From Serratia liquefaciens (lineage in GTDB: Bacteria > Pseudomonadota > Gammaproteobacteria > Enterobacterales > Enterobacteriaceae): 64,000 nucleotides of DNA. Position 1 is the first letter of the stretch; every line of letters starts with the position of its first letter. The position numbers and the translations under genes were made by a program. Below are positions 46,803 to 56,687 of this stretch, one piece after another. The stretch is from assembly GCF_027594825.1 (NCBI RefSeq), contig NZ_CP088930.1:3347019-3411018 (forward strand). Reading direction: 5' to 3'. A model generated the notes under the pieces. The model searched no databases, was not told the origin of the DNA, and was given only the letters and a program-made list of their open reading frames with translations.

Positions 46803-47299
46803 TCCGCGTAGAAATTCCGGTAGATGCCGCGGGGATCGACGCGCTTTTGCGTCGTGCATTTGGGCGTGACGACGAGGCCGATCTGGTGCAGCAACTGCGC
46901 GAAGATGGCCTGTTGACGCTGGGCATTGTTGCCACCGACGACGAAGGCGGCGTGGTAGGCTATGCGGCGTTCAGTCCGGTGGACGTGGCCGGAGAGGATC
47001 GCCAATGGGTCGGTCTGGCACCGCTGGCGGTGGACGAAAGCCTGCGTCGGCAGGGGCTGGGCGAAAAGCTGATCTACGAAGGGTTGGATTCGCTCAATGA
47101 GTTCAGCTATGCCGCAGTGGTGGTGCTGGGCGATCCCGCTTATTACGGCCGCTTCGGCTTTAAACCGGCTGCCGCCTACGGGCTGCAATGCCGTTGGCCG
47201 GGCAGCGAAGCCGCCTTCCAGGTGTATCCGCTGGCGGAAAATGCTCTGGATGATGTGCGCGGGGCGGTGGAGTTTTCCGAGCCGTTTAACCGGTTTTAA
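46796..47299 (+). CDS. yhbS: YhbS, GNAT-family N-acetyltransferase
   Basis: 167 residues with the GNAT fold: acetyl-CoA motif A as [24 protein letters not shown] at about 82-105, then [18 protein letters not shown]. Overlaps ubiT by 7 bases, so the two are coupled as in E. coli. Substrate not known. Its 3' end also overlaps the convergent yhbQ by 14 bases. Confidence 0.93.
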
Positions 47300-47591
47300 T
47301 CTCAGCTTCCGGCAGTAAATGATCCAACGAAAGAGGCGGGTGATTCACCAGCCTCTCTTTTTGCGTTTTGCTCAGCTGCTTCACCCGGTATTCCAACCTT
47401 AGCGCTTTAGAACGATCCCCCGCCAGGCAGTGAAACGCCAACACCAGCTCGCCTTTGCCCCGCAGTGCCTTTGCTCCTTTGCCAGCCTGATGCTGTGCTA
47501 GACGTCGTTCGACGTCGGTAGTAATGCCGGTATACAGCATGCCGTTAGGCAGACGCAGCATGTAAAGGTGCCAGTCAATTGTATCCATCAT
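47286..47591 (-). CDS. yhbQ: YhbQ, GIY-YIG domain protein
   Basis: About 101 residues from [37 protein letters not shown]. The GIY-YIG signature appears as [12 protein letters not shown], the usual variant of the UPF0213/YhbQ group of E. coli (100 residues). This family has single-strand nuclease activity reported for some members. A longer frame to 47633 is unlikely. Downstream, on the other side of its start, is the CRISPR leader. Confidence 0.9.
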
Positions 47592-47639
47592 CTGGGGCCC
47601 CATGAATAATCGAACACTACTATAGGTAACCATGGTCTA

Positions 47640-47776
47640 CTGCTGAACCCTTTTTTTATAGCGAAATTTAACCATTTGATTTTAAACGTATTGAATGGAT
47701 TGGATGGAAAAAGCCTTTTTGGCAAAATAATGACGTTACTCTTCAATTATCAGCTAATTGGCGCTAATCTTTAACA
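47640..47776 (+). other. AT-rich leader region of the CRISPR array
   Basis: A 137-base stretch free of genes with T- and A-runs immediately before the first conserved repeat. The degenerate repeat is at the far end, so this side is taken as the leader end. The array promoter is not resolved by eye. Confidence 0.6.
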
Positions 47777-48044
47777 GTTCACTGCCGTGCAGGCAGCTTA
47801 GAAAAGGTAAAAGGGAAGGTTTTATAGCCGGAAAACGTTCACTGCCGTGCAGGCAGCTTAGAAAAGAGAGGAAATAAACAAAATCCTCAACGAGTAGTTC
47901 ACTGCCGTACGGGCAGCTTAGAAATTCAAACAGCGACGTTGGCCGCTCAAGTCCGAGTTCACTGCCGCATAGGCAGCTTAGAAAGCCAACGTTCAGTTTT
48001 AAAGCATAAGCAACGGGTTCACTGCCGACTGGGTAACTTGAAAA
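47777..48044 (+). CRISPR. Type I-F CRISPR array, 5 repeats and 4 spacers
   Basis: 28-base repeats begin GTTCACTGCC and end GGCAGCTTAGAAA, the type I-F class. Positions: 47777-47804, 47837-47864, 47897-47924, 47957-47984 and 48017-48044; every spacer is 32 bases, giving a fixed period of 60. The stem CTGCC/GGCAG is intact in the first four, while loop bases vary (GTGCA, GTGCA, GTACG, GCATA). The fifth repeat is degenerate (GGTAACTTGAAAA at its end), the usual leader-distal mark. No cas gene occurs in the window, so the array depends on a distant type I-F system or is inactive. Confidence 0.95.
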
Positions 48045-48092
48045 TGGAAGGAACCCGCATGGGTAGAGTGAACAAACGCCATCTTTAGCGTA

Positions 48093-48126
48093 CCGAGAGG
48101 CCATTATGGAACACCTCCCCTCTCGG
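48093..48126. repeat. Hairpin downstream of the CRISPR array and potE
   Basis: CCGAGAGG and CCTCTCGG form an 8-bp stem; outer imperfect arms starting near 48065 and ending near 48139 (AGAGT...ACTCT) extend it. No T-run. It may end or protect potE transcripts, or mark a former insertion boundary. Confidence 0.5.
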
Positions 48127-48165
48127 CACGTTTACTCTAATCACTGTGCCAATAGCTGATTACCG

Positions 48166-49482
48166 TCAGCCTTTTTTGCCCGCGATTTCGAAGCGAGGTG
48201 AAACGAGGCCGTACAGCGTCCAGCCGAGGAAAGTGGCGATGGCACCCCACATCATGGCCTCTTCACCGGAACTGTAGAGCGCGTAGAAGCTGTAAAGCGC
48301 GCCAATGCCGGCAATGATGTTGGCGATGCGCGCTTTTTTCTCCGGCACTTTCGCCACCTTTTGAATAATGATCAGCGCCGCCATCGACAAGATGTAGGGG
48401 ATGATATTGGTCACCACGGCCAGATTAACCAGCACGTTGAACTGCTTGTTCAGCGATGGGCTGATGGTCATCAGCGACAGCACGCTCTGGATAACGACAA
48501 TGGTCAGCATGCCTTTGACCGGGGCATCCGCCTTGCTGAGTTTCGAGAAGATTTTCGGGAAGAAACCGCTGTCGGCGGAAGATTTGAACACCTGGGCGAT
48601 GGTGAACTGCCAGCCCAGCAGTGAACCGACGCAGGACATGATCATCAGTGCCATGATGATCTTGCCGACCGTTGGGTTGAACATATGGGAAAACGCCAGT
48701 CCAAACGGCGCGGTGGAATTGGCCAGATCCATATTCGGTACTATGCCGGCGATCACGTTGGTCGAAACGATATAGATCACTGCGGCGCTGAGGGTGCCGC
48801 CCAATACGGCGATCGGCACATTACGTTCTGGGTTCTCCACCACATCGGTATTGGCACAGGCGGATTCGAGGCCGAGGAAAGCCCATAGGGTCATGGAAAT
48901 CGAAGCGCCAATGGCTTCAAAAGTCGGCACCTGATGCGGGTTCCAAGCGGCGACGTATGCGCTGCCGCTGAACCAGTGCCAGCCGATGATTGAAATCCCG
49001 ACCACCGGAATGATGACGCCCCAGACGGTGATGCCGCTGATCCTGCCGGTAATGCGAGCGCCGCCGAAGTTGGCGACCGTGGCCAACCACAGCACACCGA
49101 TGGTGGCGATGCAGATCCCCAATGGGCTCAGGTTGGCGCCAAACAGCTCGGTACCGTAACCCACGGCAGAAATGGCGATGGCGATATTGGCGATCAGTAA
49201 TGAAACGCCGTAGGTATAGTTCGCCATAAAGTTGCCCGATTTCCCGAAGGCATATTCAGCATATCCCCCCATGCCGCCGGATTTACGGCTGAACATCCCG
49301 CATTTGGCAAAGGCATAGGCCAGCGCCATCGATCCCACTGCGGTGACCAACCAGGAAACAATAGAAATCGTACCTACTTCGGCCAGCTTGGTCGGCAGCA
49401 TAATTATGCCGGAGCCCATCATATTGACGGCCGTCAGGATCGTTAACTGCACGACCCCCATTTTATTATTGGACTTACTCAT
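48166..49482 (-). CDS. potE: Putrescine-ornithine antiporter PotE
   Basis: 438 residues (E. coli 439), twelve membrane helices of the APC superfamily. It aligns almost without gaps with E. coli PotE from NKMGVVQLTILTAVNMMGSGIIMLPTKLAEVG to LYGLVSPRFE. It exchanges external ornithine for internal putrescine, so with SpeF it consumes a proton per cycle in acid. The start at MSKSNNKMG (49482) is preferred over a frame 16 residues longer. Follows speF by about 60 bases on the same strand. Confidence 0.97.
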   Translation of the reverse strand: MSKSNNKMGVVQLTILTAVNMMGSGIIMLPTKLAEVGTISIVSWLVTAVGSMALAYAFAKCGMFSRKSGGMGGYAEYAFGKSGNFMANYTYGVSLLIANIAIAISAVGYGTELFGANLSPLGICIATIGVLWLATVANFGGARITGRISGITVWGVIIPVVGISIIGWHWFSGSAYVAAWNPHQVPTFEAIGASISMTLWAFLGLESACANTDVVENPERNVPIAVLGGTLSAAVIYIVSTNVIAGIVPNMDLANSTAPFGLAFSHMFNPTVGKIIMALMIMSCVGSLLGWQFTIAQVFKSSADSGFFPKIFSKLSKADAPVKGMLTIVVIQSVLSLMTISPSLNKQFNVLVNLAVVTNIIPYILSMAALIIIQKVAKVPEKKARIANIIAGIGALYSFYALYSSGEEAMMWGAIATFLGWTLYGLVSPRFEIAGKKG

Positions 49483-49545
49483 GATCATTCTCTCTTTTAT
49501 GATGCGATCTGGGCGGTGAATAATATTCACCGCCTTGTAATGTCG

Positions 49546-51708
49546 TTAATGACTCATGACGTAACCGTAAGCACGGTTCCAGCCGTCTTCATCTTTCTGG
49601 ATATAAACACCCTGCAATTCCGGTGCAAAACCAGGAAGTAAATTAATACCCTCTTCCAGTGCCAGGAAATAACGCTGTGCCGCACCGCCCCATATTTCCC
49701 CAGGGACCACACATAAAACTCCCGGTGGATAAGGTAATGCTCCTTCGGCCGCAATACGGCCTTCCGCCTTGGCCAGAGAAACCAGTTCAATATTACCGCG
49801 GACAAATTCCGTGTTGGCATCTTGTGGATTCATGGCAATGCGAGGGAAATAATTTTTACGGAACATCTCTTTTTGCAGTTCTTTAACGTCGTAACTGACA
49901 TAAAGATCGTGCATCTCCTGGCAAAGCTGACGCAGGGTATAATTCTTGTAGCGTTGCTCATTGCTTTTATATACCGCGGGCAGGACTTCACTGAGTAATG
50001 AATCCTGTTCGATGTGTTTTTCAAAGCGGGCAATCAGCGCCACCAGATGCTGCATCTTGGCGATGTCTTCGGCCGGCGTAAGCAGGAACAGGATCGAGTT
50101 GAGATCGCATTTTTCCGGTACGATGCCGTTTTCGCGCAGATAGTTGGCCAAAATGGTCGCCGGAATGCCGAAGTCGCTGTAGTTGCCGCTCGCCGTGTCT
50201 ATGCCCGGCGTGGTGAGCAACAGCTTGCACGGGTCGACAAAATACTGCGATTCCGCATAGCCTTCAAAGGCATGCCATTTCTCGCCTGGCACAAAGTTGA
50301 AGAAGCGCAAATCGTTGGCCATCGTTTCGGTGTCATAAGACTGCCAGGGCTTGCCGTCGATCTGGTCCGGGACAAAGGGTTTGATTAACTGACAGGTTTC
50401 CAGCAGCATCTTGCGAGCTTCAATCCCTACGCGAACGCACTCCTTCCACAGGCGCTGGCCGCTTTTCCCTTCGTGCATTTTGGCATTGACGTCCAGGGCA
50501 GCAAACAGCGGATAGAACGGGCTGGTGGAAGCATGCAACATAAAAGCGTTATTGAAGCGCTTATGGTTGCAATAGCGACTTTGCCCTTTGATATGTTTGT
50601 CTTTTTTATGGATTTGCGAGGTTTGCGAGAAGCCGGCCTGCTGTTTGTGAACGGACTGGGTAACAATGATCCCCGGGTCGTTTTCATTCAGGTCGAGCAG
50701 TAAAGGCGAACAATCTTTCATCATTGGGATGAATTGTTCATAGCCCACCCAGGCGGAGTCAAACAGGATGTAATCGCACAGGTGCCCAATCTTGTCGACC
50801 ACCTGGCGAGCATTGTAAATGGTGCCGTCGTAGGTGCCTAACTGGATGATTGCCAGACGGAAAGGTCGGGCTTCATTGGCGCGTTCCGGTGCCACTTCGC
50901 GGATTTGCTGACGCAAGTAACGTTCATCGAAGCAGTGGGCATCAATACCGCCGATAAAGCCAAATGGATTGCGGGCGGTCTCCAGATAGACCGGCGTTGC
51001 GCCAGCCTGAATCAATGCGCCGTGGTGATTGGATTTATGGTTATTGCGGTCGAACAACACCAAATCGCCGCGGGTGAGCAGGGCATTGGTCGCGACTTTA
51101 TTTGATGCAGAGGTCCCATTCAGCACGAAATAGGTCTTATCGGCGTTAAACACCTTGGCCGCGTGTTGCTGCGCGGCACAGGGAGCCCCCTCGTGGATCA
51201 ATAAATCGCCCAGTTTGACGTCCGCGTTGCACATATCGGAACGGAACAGCGTCTCGCCATAGAAATCAAAGAACTGACGTCCGGCCGGATGTTTACGGAA
51301 GAATTCACCGCCCTGATGGCCCGGGCAGGCAAAGGTGGCGTTGCCCATTTCGACATACTGCGTCAGCGTGTTGAAGAACGGTGGCAGCAGATCTTTTTCA
51401 TATTTTACCGCCGCGGCCTCCAACTGCTTGCCGTAGAACTGGGTGTTTTTCCCGCAGAGTTCAAATACCCCGTGCAGCGCCGGCAATACGGCGTTGTCCA
51501 ACTCTTCTTCGCAGCAAACCGCCACAAACAGCGGGATGTTCAACCCGATCTCTTCGAGATGCGTCACCATGCCCTGTGCAACGTCGTCAACGGACAGCAC
51601 AATGGCGGCGACATCGTTGAAATCGCTTTGGTGCACATCAACAATTTCACGTTCAGTTTCAAAACAGCCTAGTGTTTTTTCATTAGCGGCAATTTTTAGC
51701 TTTTTCAT
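49546..51708 (-). CDS. speF: Inducible ornithine decarboxylase SpeF
   Basis: About 720 residues, wing, PLP-binding and C-terminal domains. The PLP lysine is in TQSVHKQQAGFSQT at about 355. Aligned with E. coli SpeF over its whole length, including CPGHQGGEFFRKHPAG and WVGYEQFIPMM. It decarboxylates ornithine to putrescine and consumes a proton. Two ATGs exist, 51717 and 51708; the later (MKKLKIAA) matches the family start. Expression should depend on the speFL leader peptide about 270 bases upstream. Confidence 0.97.
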   Translation of the reverse strand: MKKLKIAANEKTLGCFETEREIVDVHQSDFNDVAAIVLSVDDVAQGMVTHLEEIGLNIPLFVAVCCEEELDNAVLPALHGVFELCGKNTQFYGKQLEAAAVKYEKDLLPPFFNTLTQYVEMGNATFACPGHQGGEFFRKHPAGRQFFDFYGETLFRSDMCNADVKLGDLLIHEGAPCAAQQHAAKVFNADKTYFVLNGTSASNKVATNALLTRGDLVLFDRNNHKSNHHGALIQAGATPVYLETARNPFGFIGGIDAHCFDERYLRQQIREVAPERANEARPFRLAIIQLGTYDGTIYNARQVVDKIGHLCDYILFDSAWVGYEQFIPMMKDCSPLLLDLNENDPGIIVTQSVHKQQAGFSQTSQIHKKDKHIKGQSRYCNHKRFNNAFMLHASTSPFYPLFAALDVNAKMHEGKSGQRLWKECVRVGIEARKMLLETCQLIKPFVPDQIDGKPWQSYDTETMANDLRFFNFVPGEKWHAFEGYAESQYFVDPCKLLLTTPGIDTASGNYSDFGIPATILANYLRENGIVPEKCDLNSILFLLTPAEDIAKMQHLVALIARFEKHIEQDSLLSEVLPAVYKSNEQRYKNYTLRQLCQEMHDLYVSYDVKELQKEMFRKNYFPRIAMNPQDANTEFVRGNIELVSLAKAEGRIAAEGALPYPPGVLCVVPGEIWGGAAQRYFLALEEGINLLPGFAPELQGVYIQKDEDGWNRAYGYVMSH

Positions 51709-51717
51709 TTTTCTCAT

Positions 51718-51977
51718 TCTTCAGGCAACGGTATTCCATCAGCAAATAATAAAATTTGCCGTTAATACCTTATGAAAATAAAGGTGTGCGAGAACCTGGC
51801 ATGCCGAAAGGCATTCCTGAGTTCACTCTATTATTTGGGGCGCGGTTCTTATCCAATAAAGATGAATTACGGTATTTTCCCTTGCGTAAGCAACAGAAAT
51901 TTATCTCTGTTGATCAGAGTGAAAAATAAGTCGTAATAATGTCTTGCGTTCGGAATAAGGACGAACGAGGAGGGAGG
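51718..51977 (-). other. speF leader between speFL and speF
   Basis: About 260 bases with no gene. In E. coli and Salmonella this leader carries the region where Rho ends transcription unless ribosomes stalled on speFL block it. AT-rich with short hairpins; I did not fold it. A similar role here is inferred from speFL. Confidence 0.6.
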
Positions 51978-52082
51978 TTATCTGAAGTTAAAGAAGGCGA
52001 AGCTAAAGCAGCTACGATGAGCCATCATCATAATATGGGTAGTGCGCCTGATATGCGCCATTTTTCGGTTGTTGTTTTCCAT
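51978..52082 (-). CDS. speFL: SpeFL, ornithine-sensing leader peptide of speF
   Basis: A 34-codon frame, too short for usual gene callers. It starts MENNNRKMAHIRRTTHIM and ends FAFFNFR before TAA. E. coli/Salmonella SpeFL is also 34 residues, starting MENNSRTMPHIRRTTHIM and ending ..FNAR; the HIRRTTH core (10-16) is identical. That peptide stalls the ribosome at its stop codon when ornithine is bound, which blocks Rho and lets speF be made. AAGGTGG with 8-base spacing precedes the ATG. It lies in the correct orientation 270 bases upstream of speF. Differences from E. coli: K19M, F20M, N24S, S25C, D27S, H29A, A33F. Confidence 0.93.
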   Translation of the reverse strand: MENNNRKMAHIRRTTHIMMMAHRSCFSFAFFNFR

Positions 52083-52514
52083 TTCTAATCCACCTTGGTG
52101 CGTGAAAAGATGGCGCTATTTTAACGCAGGCTTGGCCAAAATATGTGATGCGCGTCACGCATATGCAGCTTTAAGTAAATAATTATTCACTTCTTATGCA
52201 TTGAAGTGAATAAAAATACCGCGAAAGAGTTATTACGTATGTAAATAGATTGATAACAAACAGCCCATTTGGTGACCTGATTTTCCCTGACCTGGAGAAA
52301 GGGCAAAAAAAATTGCGTTTAAGAAGGACATATACAGTGCAATTGAAGTGAGTTTGTTTTTATTATGTTATAAGTCCATACATTGACATTTTGCATATAA
52401 ATTCACTTTATTTGGGTGTTTATTCTTTTTTCATTTTTTCCGGCATTGTTGTTATTTGTGACCCGCCTCAACAACACGGGTTAAGATGAAGCAAGCTAAA
52501 GGGGAGAATTCACA
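52083..52514. other. Divergent promoter region of speFL-speF-potE and yhbP
   Basis: About 430 AT-rich bases with no gene I can support. It must contain the promoter of the long speF leader on the minus strand and the yhbP promoter on the plus strand. A CRP-like site is at 52144-52159. Confidence 0.55.
52144..52159. promoter_or_regulatory. CRP-like site upstream of speFL
   Basis: TGTGA-TGCGCG-TCACG, nine of ten consensus bases of TGTGA-N6-TCACA. It lies about 62 bases before speFL. Binding by CRP is an inference. Confidence 0.5.
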
Positions 52515-52949
52515 GTGATTATGACCGACGAGCATCAATCTATAGTGCACTTCCTCAGCAAGCAGCACGTACTGACGCTGTGCGCGGGAAACGGTATGGA
52601 CATGTGGTGCGCCAACTGTTTCTACGTGTTTGATGCCGAGCGTATGGCGCTGTGGCTGATGACCGAAACCCACACACGCCACGGCGAGCTGATGCTGCAC
52701 AACGCCAGCGTGGTGGGCACCATAGCGCCGAAACCGAAGACCATCGCCTTGATCCGCGGCATTCAGTATCGGGCGCAAGCGACGATGCTGAACGGTGAGC
52801 AGGAGGCGCTGGCACGGGCACGTTACTGTAAGCGTTTCCCGATAGCCAAAATGATGAAGGCGCCGGTCTGGCAGTTGGATCTGCAGGAGGTGAAGATGAC
52901 GGACAACACCCTCGGTTTCGGTAAAAAGCTTCACTGGGCGCGGGTCTGA
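52515..52949 (+). CDS. yhbP: YhbP, UPF0306 (flavin-binding split-barrel-like) protein
   Basis: 144 residues (E. coli YhbP 147). Conserved segments: [11 protein letters not shown] equivalent [33 protein letters not shown], and the ending [15 protein letters not shown]. Fold is like pyridoxamine-phosphate oxidase-type split barrels; activity is unknown. The start is GTG at 52515 or ATG two codons later; GGGGAG spacing favours GTG. It is followed by yraR 47 bases later. Confidence 0.9.
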
Positions 52950-52996
52950 ATACGACAAACTATACTTTTCAGCATCATCAATCGGCGGGAGGGCAT

Positions 52997-53635
52997 ATGG
53001 CCCGGGTATTTATTGTAGGGGCAACTGGGTTGGTGGGTAATGCACTGTTGCATCTGCTGCAGCGTGATCCGCAGGTCACGGCGATCGTGGCGCCAACGCG
53101 CAAGCCACTGCCGCCGCACGAAAAATTAGACAACCCCGTGGGTGATGATTTGTTCGCGCTGCTGACCGGCTGTGAACAGCCGGTCGATAGGGTGTTTTGC
53201 TGCCTGGGGACGACCCGCCGCGAGGCCGGTAGCGACGCTAATTTCCATTACGTCGATTATACCCTGGTGGTGGAAAGTGCGCTGACTGGCCGTCGGTTAG
53301 GGGCGCAGCATTGTCTGGCCGTCAGTGCATTAGGCGCGAACAGGCACTCTACGTTCCTCTATAACCGCACCAAAGGGGAAATGGAGCAGGCGCTGCGTGA
53401 ACAGAGTTGGCCGCGCCTGACGCTGGTGCGGCCATCCATGCTACTGGGGTCACGGCCCTCGCCGCGTTTGCTGGAGCGCCTCACCGCGCCGCTGTTCAAA
53501 TTGCTGCCCGGCAAATGGCGAGCGGTGAGTGCCGAAGACGTGGCGCAAACCCTGCTGGAACAGGCGTTCAGCCCTGGCAACGGCGTTAGGGTGCTGGAAT
53601 CCGATCGGCTGCATTGTTACCGCAGTGCACGCTGA
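52997..53635 (+). CDS. yraR: YraR, NAD(P)-binding Rossmann-fold protein
   Basis: 212 residues, SDR-like atypical family. N-terminal nucleotide motif MARVFIVGATGLVGN (GATGLVG at about 8-14), then CLGTTRREAGSDANFHYVDY, SALGANRHSTFLYNRTKGEME with the Y-x3-K pair. Ortholog of E. coli YraR, also in the yhbPO-yraR cluster (yhbO is absent here). Its last 50 bases overlap convergently with phnP. Confidence 0.92.
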   Translation: MARVFIVGATGLVGNALLHLLQRDPQVTAIVAPTRKPLPPHEKLDNPVGDDLFALLTGCEQPVDRVFCCLGTTRREAGSDANFHYVDYTLVVESALTGRRLGAQHCLAVSALGANRHSTFLYNRTKGEMEQALREQSWPRLTLVRPSMLLGSRPSPRLLERLTAPLFKLLPGKWRAVSAEDVAQTLLEQAFSPGNGVRVLESDRLHCYRSAR

Positions 53636-54368
53636 GATTATCGAACGCCAGCTCCAGGCCAGGCGGCAGTTCATTGTTCGTCAGCCACAAGTCGAGATGA
53701 TGGCTGATGTGCGTCAGCAGCGTACGGCCTGGCTGTAAGCGTTGCTGAATTTCCTGCGCACGGGTCAAGTCGTTGTGGTTGCGCGGTGCCTGCGGCTGAG
53801 GGGGCAGGCTGCAATCGAGCACCAGCAAATCCAACGGCACTCCGCGCAGAAAAGCGTCGGTATCGGGCGGCAGGCCGACGGTATCGGTCAGGTAGGCCAG
53901 CGATGCTCCTGCGGCCTGTATCAGATAGCCCAGCGTGATTTTTGAATGCTGCAGCGGCAACGGGGTGATGCGCAACCCGCCCAGTTCAAGGGGTTCGAAG
54001 GGGGTTAATGGCGGTTGAAACGCCAGAATGCCGGGATGTTTGAACAGGTCATCGCAGCCCTGTTCGTCCGCCGGACCATAGACGGGAATAAAATTTCCGC
54101 ATCCCCAACGCAAAGGAAATAACCCCTGCACGTGATCCATGTGGTAATGTGTCAGTAAAAAACGTTGAATTTCCCCCGCCGAAAAACGCCGTTCCAACGA
54201 CGGTAATCCCGCATCCAGCAAGGTCGTTTCCCCCTGAAATTTGAGCATGGCGCTGCACGGTCGTCGCCGAAAAGCCGGCTCGCGCCGCGCCCGCTGACAG
54301 ACCAGACAATCACAGCCAAACACCGGGATCTGTTGCGCGCCGCCGGTGCCGAGAAACGTCAGTTGCAT
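53586..54368 (-). CDS. phnP: PhnP, phosphoribosyl cyclic phosphodiesterase of the C-P lyase pathway
   Basis: 260 residues, metallo-beta-lactamase fold. The HxHxDH metal motif is LTHYHMDHVQG at about 75-86; a structural zinc site CDCLVC is near the N-terminus (about residues 19-24), typical for PhnP. It opens ribose 1,2-cyclic phosphate 5-phosphate to ribose 1,5-bisphosphate for PhnN. Last gene of the operon, overlapping yraR by 50 bases at the 3' ends. Confidence 0.95.
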   Translation of the reverse strand: MQLTFLGTGGAQQIPVFGCDCLVCQRARREPAFRRRPCSAMLKFQGETTLLDAGLPSLERRFSAGEIQRFLLTHYHMDHVQGLFPLRWGCGNFIPVYGPADEQGCDDLFKHPGILAFQPPLTPFEPLELGGLRITPLPLQHSKITLGYLIQAAGASLAYLTDTVGLPPDTDAFLRGVPLDLLVLDCSLPPQPQAPRNHNDLTRAQEIQQRLQPGRTLLTHISHHLDLWLTNNELPPGLELAFDNLSVHCGNNAADRIPAP

Positions 54369-54382
54369 GTCGTCACTCCCGA

Positions 54383-54985
54383 TTATAAATACTTCTCCGC
54401 GAAGGCATGGATATCACGGAAATCCGCCAACCGCTGTTGCAGCGTCTGGTGGTCCCAGTGCCACCACTGGCTGCGCTCAATGCGTTCGATCAGGGCGTCG
54501 TCGAAACGCATGCCGATCTTTTTGGCCGCTACGCCGGCGACAATCTCATAGGGGGCGACATCTTTGGTGACGACCGCTGCGCTGCCGATAACGGCACCGT
54601 TGCCGATGCTGACGCCGGGCATGACGATGGCGTTATGACCCATCCAGACGTCGTGGCCGATAGTCACATGCTGTTCGCGCCGCCAGTCGAAGAACGCTTC
54701 GTCGTCTTCTCCCAGGTCATAGTCTGAAGCGCGGTAGGTGAAATGGTGTTGGGCGATACGCTGGTAAGTGGGGTGATTGCCAGGATTGATGCGTGCATAA
54801 GAGGCAATCGACACGAATTTGCCGAGGGTGGCGTAAAAAATCTGGTTGTGTCCGGCGGTGTAGGAGTAATCACCCATTTCCACCTCCTCCAGGATCGCAT
54901 CGTCGGCCAGATGCACATACTGGCCTAAGCGGGTGCGGTTAAGCGTCACGTTGTTACCGATTTTCGGCTGTGCGGCATCGTTCAT
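54383..54985 (-). CDS. Phosphonate-operon hexapeptide-repeat acyltransferase
   Basis: 200 residues with left-handed beta-helix hexapeptide repeats (GDYSYTAGHNQIF, IGHDVWMGHNAIVMPGVSIGNGAVIGSAAVVTKDV), a family of CatB-like transferases found inside phosphonate operons. It replaces PhnO (a GNAT) as the acyltransferase in this operon and probably acylates an aminoalkylphosphonate or an intermediate. Overlaps phnN by 4 bases. Confidence 0.88.
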   Translation of the reverse strand: MNDAAQPKIGNNVTLNRTRLGQYVHLADDAILEEVEMGDYSYTAGHNQIFYATLGKFVSIASYARINPGNHPTYQRIAQHHFTYRASDYDLGEDDEAFFDWRREQHVTIGHDVWMGHNAIVMPGVSIGNGAVIGSAAVVTKDVAPYEIVAGVAAKKIGMRFDDALIERIERSQWWHWDHQTLQQRLADFRDIHAFAEKYL

Positions 54986-55551
54986 GGCACGGCATCCTGT
55001 GGTTGTTTTGTCATAGAGGGCAGCAGCGCCAACAGCGCCGCCAGCGTGTCATCAAGGTTGCCGTCGTTATCCAAGCGTCGGCAACCGGCAGGGAGCTTTT
55101 CCTGGTACTCTGCCGCACGCGCCAATCGTTGTTCGATCTGCTCGGCATTTTCGCGTGCGCGGTTTTGCAGCCGCTGGCGGAGAATATGCGTACTGACCTG
55201 CAGGCAAACCGGCAGCAGCTGTGCGCCATAACGCTGCTGCGCCTGTAAAAGGTGAGCGCGCGAGCCATTGACGACGACATCGATCCCCTGCAGCAACCAA
55301 AGATCCACTTCGATCCCAAAAGCGTAATGATGCTGGTGCGCGTGCCAGTCGAGGGCAAACAGGCCTTTGGCGCGGCGGCGCAAGAATTCGGGTTCACTGA
55401 GCGCAATGTGGTTCTCGCAGCTGGCGTCTGCCGGCCGGGTGATATAACGGTGCGCCACCAGCGGCGCACTGTCGGCGTGGGCGCGCAGGGCGGCCAGCAG
55501 GCTGTCTTTCCCGGCCCCGGAAGGCCCCATCAGATAGATAAGCTGCGCCAT
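54982..55551 (-). CDS. phnN: PhnN, ribose 1,5-bisphosphokinase
   Basis: 189 residues from MAQLIYLMGPSGAGKDSLLAAL: P-loop GPSGAGKDS and a guanylate-kinase-like fold, with HRYITRPAD and a lid segment. It makes PRPP from ribose 1,5-bisphosphate, finishing the carbon path of the C-P lyase route. The start shares one base with the phnM stop; the frame upstream of it is phnM sequence. Confidence 0.95.
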   Translation of the reverse strand: MAQLIYLMGPSGAGKDSLLAALRAHADSAPLVAHRYITRPADASCENHIALSEPEFLRRRAKGLFALDWHAHQHHYAFGIEVDLWLLQGIDVVVNGSRAHLLQAQQRYGAQLLPVCLQVSTHILRQRLQNRARENAEQIEQRLARAAEYQEKLPAGCRRLDNDGNLDDTLAALLALLPSMTKQPQDAVP

Positions 55552-56687
55552 CAGAACACCTGCTTGCCCTGGCGCCACACGTTCTGCACGTAGATATGCT
55601 CGCCGTGCGGTCGCGCCAACACCAAATCTGCCCGTAATCCTTCGGCGATGGTCCCGCGATCCTGCAAGTCCAGCGCTTTTGCCGGGTTGCGGGTGATCAT
55701 CTTCACCGCCTGCGGCAAGCCGTAGCCGTTGCGCTCGTCGGCCGCGATACGAAATGCCGCATCCAGCAGGCTGGCCGGGTAATAATCGGAAGACAGAATA
55801 TCCAATACCCCCAACGCCGCCAGATGGTGCGCTGCTACGTTGCCGGAGTGGGAACCGCCGCGCACGATATTCGGCGCCCCCATCAGCACCTGTAATCCTT
55901 GCTGATGCGAGGCCAGGGCTGCGGCTTCGGTGGTGGGGAATTCGGCAATGGCACTGCCCAGCGCACAGGACTCGGTCACGTGTTCGGCGGTCGCGTCGTC
56001 GTGGCTGGCAAGAGAGATCCTGCGTGCCCGGCAGTGAGCGGCGATCGCTTCGCGGTTTGGCGTGGCCCAGCGAGCGGAAAGCCCGATTTGCTGCTCCTCA
56101 AAGTCGCTCATCTGCTGGTCATTGAGGTTGTATTTGCCCTGATAGTATTCGCGGTATTTTTCACGCGAAGCGAACTGTCGCTGGCCCGGCGAATGGTCCA
56201 TCAATGACACCAGGGACACGCCCGGTTTATCCATCAGCTGTTCGAACAGCGGCAGGGTGCTGTCGTGCGGCAGTTCGCAGCGCAGGTGCAACCGGTGTTC
56301 GGCGCGGTTCACCCCCGCACGCTGGCTGTGGATCACCGCGTCGATCATTTTTTGCAGGTTCTCCAACCGGTGACCGCCGTCGCGTACGTCGCCAATGGCG
56401 ACCGCGTCCAGCACGGTGGTGATGCCATTGGCCACCATCAATGCATCATGGCTGCTCATGGCCGAATGGGCCGGCCAGTCGACGTTGGGGCGCGGGGTGA
56501 AAAACTTGTCCAGGTTATCGGTGTGCAATTCGATCAGGCCAGGCAGCAACCAGCCGCCTTCACCGTTCAGTGCCTGGGGTAACTGGCTCGGGGTATCGGC
56601 AAAACTGCGGATCGTGCCGTCGCTGATCTCCAGCGATCCTTCGACAACCTGATCTTCCAGCACCAGCTTCACGTTATTGATGATCAT
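55551..56687 (-). CDS. phnM: PhnM, RPnTP hydrolase (amidohydrolase)
   Basis: 378 residues. Amidohydrolase metal motif LPGLIELHTDNLDK at about 48-61 (HxD form), then HDDATAEH, and a conserved SSDYYPASLLDAAF near residue 300. It removes pyrophosphate from ribose-1-phosphonate triphosphate, giving 5-phosphoribosyl-1-phosphonate for PhnJ. Overlaps by one base with phnL upstream and phnN downstream. Confidence 0.96.
   Translation of the reverse strand: MIINNVKLVLEDQVVEGSLEISDGTIRSFADTPSQLPQALNGEGGWLLPGLIELHTDNLDKFFTPRPNVDWPAHSAMSSHDALMVANGITTVLDAVAIGDVRDGGHRLENLQKMIDAVIHSQRAGVNRAEHRLHLRCELPHDSTLPLFEQLMDKPGVSLVSLMDHSPGQRQFASREKYREYYQGKYNLNDQQMSDFEEQQIGLSARWATPNREAIAAHCRARRISLASHDDATAEHVTESCALGSAIAEFPTTEAAALASHQQGLQVLMGAPNIVRGGSHSGNVAAHHLAALGVLDILSSDYYPASLLDAAFRIAADERNGYGLPQAVKMITRNPAKALDLQDRGTIAEGLRADLVLARPHGEHIYVQNVWRQGKQVF

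Follow-up and report, generated by a model that had tools for sequence, protein, structure and literature searches.

A probable SpeFL ornithine sensor upstream of speF-potE in Serratia liquefaciens

The 34-codon frame preceding the ornithine decarboxylase gene speF of Serratia liquefaciens is, judged from its sequence, an ordinary and intact SpeFL ortholog of an already described family. It very probably represents the Serratia speFL, i.e., the nascent-chain ornithine sensor of a speFL-speF-potE operon. The frame is located in a stretch of 64,000 nucleotides (contig NZ_CP088930.1, positions 3,347,019 to 3,411,018 of the forward strand) that was analysed as a whole and is referred to as the window; positions given below are those of the window. 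Within the genus, the putative sensor is conserved residue by residue, and its occurrence tracks that of speF rather than that of ornithine decarboxylase in general.

According to the reading preferred here, ornithine would be bound by the translating ribosome via the HIRR region of nascent SpeFL, and the ribosome would come to a halt with R34, the final sense codon, in its P site and the UAA stop codon in its A site. In this state, it would cover the CU-rich stretch around and just past the stop codon, such that Rho could not terminate transcription, and would also prevent base pairing between the 3' part of speFL and the ribosome-binding site of speF. As outcome of the arrest, speF and potE would be made. 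Ornithine binding, arrest, Rho and RNA switch are carried over with high confidence from published work on Salmonella and from Escherichia coli SpeFL, for which arrest at the stop codon with bound ornithine is reportedly established. In TnaC and other metabolite-dependent arrest peptides, nascent chain and small molecule likewise stall the ribosome at the stop codon and keep Rho off; TnaC differs from SpeFL in peptide, ligand (tryptophan) and operon. Next to the assignment itself, the present analysis makes modest additions, namely a 25-codon ruler between peptide core and stop codon, a CRP-like operator and a CU-rich patch behind the stop codon.

Gene organization

The features of the operon and its leader are compiled in Table 1. 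A preliminary description of this DNA had placed a 34-codon minus-strand frame with an AAGGTGG ribosome site about 270 bases upstream of speF. This was borne out: the frame reads from ATG over 34 codons to TAA, and its stop codon is separated by 269 nt from the likely speF ATG at 51708 (MKKLKI start) or by 260 nt from an upstream in-frame ATG at 51717. The start codons of speFL and speF are 374 nt apart.

Table 1 Features of the speFL-speF-potE region in the window
Feature	Position	Strand	Remarks
CRP-like operator CGTGACGCGCATCACA	52144..52159	minus	9/10 consensus bases; centre 69 nt 5' of the speFL ATG
Predicted -10 element TAAAAT	52118..52123	minus	invariant in 21 genus loci; transcription start inferred at ~52111
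Shine-Dalgarno sequence AAGGTGG of speFL	52090..52096	minus	7 nt 5' of the ATG; invariant in 21 aligned genus loci
speFL, 34-aa leader peptide MENNNRKMAHIRRTTHIMMMAHRSCFSFAFFNFR	51978..52082	minus	ATG start, TAA stop; PF10940, 6tbv/6tc3, dN/dS
CU-rich, G-poor patch, candidate Rho loading (rut) sequence	51946..51977	minus	directly 3' of the speFL stop codon
speF ribosome-binding region to first base of the likely ATG	51708..51724	minus	predicted pairing with the 3' part of speFL
speF, inducible ornithine decarboxylase	49546..51717, likely start 51708	minus	TIGR04301 (ODC_inducible), 1427.5 bits, cut-off 1310
potE, putrescine-ornithine antiporter	48166..49530	minus	TIGR04299, 795.8 bits, cut-off 560

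Family assignment and known relatives

The Pfam model PF10940, which carries the Pfam name SpeFL, matched the peptide with 43.3 bits (cut-off 25). When the entire genome of 5.35 Mb was scanned with this model, the frame was the only place retrieved (E 7.3e-11), which excludes a chance match. The SpeFL chain of the ribosome entries 6tbv and 6tc3 could be aligned to the peptide along its full length (E 3.6e-11); no NCBIfam model matched the peptide at E ≤ 0.1. The identity as SpeFL is based on the Pfam model, the solved E. coli SpeFL, synteny and conservation at the codon level.

In E. coli K-12, speFL is annotated as b4803 and located before speF. Aligned to b4803, the window peptide agrees with what had been described beforehand: both peptides comprise 34 residues, differ by one residue among the first five, share an identical HIRRTTHIM core, and deviate at seven positions within residues 19–34 (K19M, F20M, N24S, S25C, D27S, H29A, A33F). 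Together with three further differences in the first half (S5N, T7K, P9A), 10 of 34 residues differ, corresponding to 71 % identity. E. coli SpeFL likewise directly precedes speF-potE, its stop codon being 257 nt from speF, and its last residue is also 25 residues from the core His. The two loci differ in the match of the CRP-like operator to the consensus (8/10 bases in E. coli, 9/10 in the window) and in the upstream neighbour, which is kdpE in E. coli and a yhbP-like gene on the opposite strand in the window. The stop codon, TAA in the window versus TAG in E. coli, might count against the preferred reading.

The SpeFL/ORF34 family is described as conserved among gamma-proteobacteria in PMC6386406, the main text of which does not contain the word "Serratia". 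Salmonella ORF34 (DUF2618, PF10940) as portrayed there resembles the window frame in being a 34-aa frame before speF with Arg codons 12–13, in a CU-rich sequence near the stop codon, and in that pairing with the ribosome site of speF is predicted, whereas the start codons are 484 nt apart (positions 32 and 516) as compared to 374 nt in the window (PMC6386406).

Selection and residue variation

The 21 loci of the genus contain 16 distinct speFL coding sequences with a mean dN of 0.009 and a mean dS of 0.79 (120 pairs). Conservation of the peptide at codon level had been proposed as a check beforehand, and the frame passes it for the genus Serratia. Among 19 variable codons, only those at positions 21 and 33 entail a residue change; 14.7 ± 1.7 residue-changing codons would be expected if the 21 variable sites were placed randomly, and none of 5000 simulations yielded a number as low as 2. 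In the genus alignment, 21 of the 105 positions of the frame are variable, as compared to 46 of 60 in the ungapped upstream and 58 of 60 in the ungapped downstream flank, the figures for the flanks being inflated by length differences. The SpeFL frame is under strong purifying selection in the genus.

The variability of single residues was assessed with 28 distinct 34-aa peptides of the MEN type beginning with ME, to which the window peptide belongs, while E. coli and other types stand outside this set. Fifteen sites are invariant (M1, E2, N3, N4, H10, I11, R12, R13, T15, H16, M18, H22, R23, F26 and F28), all of which are retained in the window. Position 20 is occupied by M (11 peptides), F (7), L (4), P (4) or V (2), position 29 by H (16), A (8) or S (4), and position 33 by seven different residues. 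At position 19, M is present in 27 of the 28 peptides, and it is the K of E. coli that represents the exception. An alignment of 11 types including more distant ones left M8, H10, I11, R12, R13, H16, M18, R23 and F26 invariant; outside the MEN group, position 15 is R. The window peptide had been characterized as a divergent natural variant in another genus. It is indeed a variant differing from E. coli, but "divergent" is overstated, since the substitutions cited for it (F20M and H29A) reside at positions variable across the family, and E. coli itself is odd at position 19. As the Serratia peptide keeps all fifteen invariant sites and differs where the family varies, it is a typical member, and it contributes to a natural set of substitutions at tolerated positions (7, 9, 20, 21, 24, 25, 27, 29, 30 and 33, among others).

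Distribution and synteny

SpeFL was found in 21 of the 30 genomes of the genus search, and the same 21 carry an adjoining speF-type decarboxylase (1421–1428 bits). Among the remaining genomes, five possess only a second type of decarboxylase (1336–1355 bits), and four with a size of at most 3.6 Mb contain neither. At least 31 of 394 genomes in the order search and at least 3 of 369 genomes in the class search matched PF10940; of the latter three, only the window's own match exceeded the cut-off. One match of the order search (G408) is without a locus. Two matches below the cut-off from outside the order (L050, L051) were rejected as chance matches, since no convincing speF match was present nearby (best E 0.18 and 0.48), and do not enter the synteny count.

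Downstream of speFL, speF was present in all 49 loci retrieved by the genus and order searches, among them that of the window, and a speF match was likewise detected in all 79 parsed loci of a named set. The latter covers 80 of 152 confirmed places; the locus of Serratia oryzae (L100) fell outside the search pattern and is therefore absent from the 79 as well as from the 128 loci in total. As 16 of the 79 named loci repeat loci of the first set, the 128 loci correspond to 112 distinct ones. In two of the named loci (L110, L117), only a short piece of speF is matched before the contig ends; in a third (L127), speF occurs in pieces. The spacer between speFL and speF amounts to 409–476 nt in 12 Yersinia loci (among L101–L115) versus 260–280 nt in Serratia loci.

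Two of these loci deviate by their own peculiarities. In S. oryzae (L100:2400–2620), the leader is altered near the start codon as judged by eye: the ATG used elsewhere is not in frame, its role would have to be taken by another ATG beside the ribosome site, and the core reads HIRRTTHMM. In Edwardsiella piscicida (L127:2912–3761), the SpeFL frame is open, while speF residues 476–723 and a weak match to residues 4–29 (E 0.03) are located close together, such that this speF appears to have lost its middle.

Distance between core and stop codon

The HIRR His and the stop codon are exactly 25 codons apart in the window and in 119 of the 128 loci (103 of the 112 distinct ones), a count that spans families f1, f6, f11 and f25 as well as the named set. 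Exceptions are one of six loci of family f6 with 30 codons and all eight loci of family f9 with 33–34 codons. The f9 genomes (L022–L029) have sizes of about 1.9–2.6 Mb, encode a SpeFL with R at position 15, and are perhaps those of Pasteurellaceae. A fixed distance fits arrest at the stop codon, since such arrest needs the stop to be at a constant spacing from the ligand-binding core, whereas a mere shield against Rho would not. With this 25-codon ruler and a clean set of exceptions at hand, the question of what fixes the site of arrest becomes testable.

Promoter region and CRP-like operator

The predicted -10 element was assigned on account of the conservation of TAAAAT and of its agreement with the mapped transcription start of Salmonella, where orf34 begins at +32, i.e., the start is located 31 nt 5' of it (PMC6386406). 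Relative to the start presumed for the window, the putative operator is centred at approximately -40.5. A centre near -40.5 corresponds to the position of class II CRP sites. Across 21 aligned loci of the genus, the GTGA and TCAC arms of the operator are invariant, while the bases between them vary.

Operators were counted if they matched the consensus at 8 or more of 10 bases and had their centre 64–73 nt before the ATG. By this measure, an operator is present in all 26 distinct upstream regions of the Serratia type, as compared to none of 130 control offsets and 11 of 1300 shuffled sequences. It is likewise present in 41 of 48 upstream regions of the DFHxFNA group (5 of 240 control offsets) and in 6 of 8 other MEN-type regions (0 of 40), but in none of 12 Yersinia-type regions (1 of 60) and in 1 of the 16 remaining regions (5 of 80). 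The claim of a CRP operator is founded on this comparative count, because CRP-like matches within the window are not rare (4 found versus 1.54 expected) and because a scan with the sigma-70 consensus did not list the proposed -10 element, with 2 promoter-like sites as compared to 3.0 in shuffled sequences. From the sequence alone, we infer that CRP would activate transcription of speFL, which provides a testable prediction on the timing of sensor transcription. The left arm of the operator in E. coli and Citrobacter reads TTGAT, resembling an FNR half-site.

Three terminator-like sites were detected versus 0.6 expected. The two minus-strand sites overlap with operator and -10 element and were not accepted as terminators; the third is located on the plus strand inside speFL.

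RNA features of the leader

Within the 40 nt following the stop codon of the window speFL, C exceeds G by 11; across the window, 0.85 % of the 40-nt stretches attain this value. The corresponding excess ranges from 7 to 13 in the genus (median 10), with medians of 4 in Enterobacter, Citrobacter and relatives (37 loci) and 3 in Yersinia (12 loci).

RNAfold predicted the codons in the second half of the window speFL to pair with the speF ribosome site. Relative to randomly recoded frames, this pairing was ordinary, with a z-score of -0.49 in the window and a mean of -0.51 in the genus (15 loci); across all 100 loci, the mean z-score was -0.86, with 28 loci at p ≤ 0.05. In one locus of this comparison (L028), no speF start was recognised. 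When leaders and speF sites were swapped between loci, permutations as good as the own partners were obtained in 555 of 5000 cases for the Serratia type (20 loci) and in 1681 of 5000 for the Yersinia type (12 loci), while in 42 DFHxFNAR-type loci the own partners clearly outperformed the swapped ones (0 of 5000). The speF site found its best partner in the 3' window of speFL in 5 of 20 Serratia-type, 3 of 12 Yersinia-type and 21 of 41 DFHxFNAR-type loci. As compared to recoded frames, the actual codons close the speF site to a larger extent in 12 of 20 Serratia-type and 33 of 41 DFHxFNAR-type loci. A ribosome at the stop codon is predicted to open the site in 19 of 20 loci of the former type (in several cases by less than 0.02) and in 37 of 41 of the latter. 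For Serratia, anti-Shine-Dalgarno pairing is kept as a possible feature and not as an established one, since the fold that looked convincing at first failed against recoded controls and swapped pairs. In Salmonella, pairing of orf34 with the speF ribosome site has been proven by compensatory mutations (PMC6386406), whereas in Serratia own pairs are no better than swapped ones. The comparison supports predicted pairing of speFL with the speF site in the E. coli-like group, and the RNA half of the switch appears weaker in Serratia than in E. coli-type leaders.

A rewired form of the switch may be considered tentatively, its probability being well below even. The peptide would be the same sensor, but in Serratia Rho would load right behind the stop codon and the footprint of the arrested ribosome would by itself be the switch, leaving a secondary role to the anti-Shine-Dalgarno helix; ornithine sensing would be coupled to carbon status via a class II CRP operator. 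This doubtful reading is a joint one that also comprises family f9, in which arrest would have to occur at an internal codon and not at the stop.

Alternative explanations

The peptide might instead be mainly a speedometer of arginyl-tRNA, the ribosome pausing at Arg codons 12–13 in low arginine and thereby giving rise to a stable, translatable speF mRNA, while ornithine acts elsewhere. Evidence for such attenuation stems from Salmonella, where arginine lowers speF via codons 12–13 and the effect is abolished by Lys codons or a moved stop; in the model proposed there, ribosomes pausing at the orf34 stop codon under high arginine cause mRNA decay and lower speF (PMC6386406). Moreover, ornithine raised speF mRNA only upon long exposure into stationary phase and not in exponential phase (PMC6386406). 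Both this result and the decay model are in part counterpoints to the preferred reading. The arginine pair is common to all 28 distinct MEN-type peptides (AGG CGC in the window), and codon 12 (52047–52049 in the window) is of the AGR kind (AGG or AGA) in 71 of the 102 distinct speFL sequences, as compared to 3 of the 40 Arg codons of the window's speF and potE. In Salmonella, however, it made no difference whether the Arg codons were rare or frequent, and a fusion with the full leader was induced about sixfold by ornithine while the promoter alone was unresponsive (PMC6386406). Attenuation by arginine also leaves the invariance of H10, T15, H16, M18, H22, R23, F26 and F28 unexplained and offers no reason for the stop codon being exactly 25 codons away from the core in most loci (103 of 112 distinct ones), save that the position of the stop matters there too. 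As the main function of the peptide it is considered unlikely; arginine attenuation and ornithine arrest can coexist.

Arrest at the stop codon with bound ornithine, the preferred reading, has further to be weighed against two other accounts. If translation alone mattered, any short frame would shield the leader from Rho; loss of orf34 translation indeed leads to Rho-dependent termination in Salmonella (PMC6386406), and a CU-rich patch is located just 3' of the window speFL stop codon. The sequence of a mere shield would drift, though, which disfavours this account in view of the very strong selection on the amino acids and of a core kept across families; it is regarded as highly improbable. 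Still slightly less credence is given to decay, i.e., a SpeFL that has lost arrest through substitutions such as F20M and H29A in the second half of the peptide. Such loss would fit the seven deviations from E. coli within residues 19–34, but among the 21 genus loci residues change at positions 21 and 33 only, and where the window departs from E. coli, further relatives that retain an open frame ahead of speF are variable as well.

Neighbouring CRISPR array

Just past potE, a mini CRISPR array is located at positions 47777–48044. It consists of four Rfam CRISPR-DR4 repeats with 60-base spacing, and a fifth, degenerate repeat starting at about 48017 was recognized by eye. A search of positions 47000–56000 against Rfam at E ≤ 1 retrieved these four CRISPR repeats and nothing else. 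Since the four repeats of the window are the only DR4 matches of the genome among the best 150 of 4229 candidates and a search for Csy4 found none, the array looks orphan.
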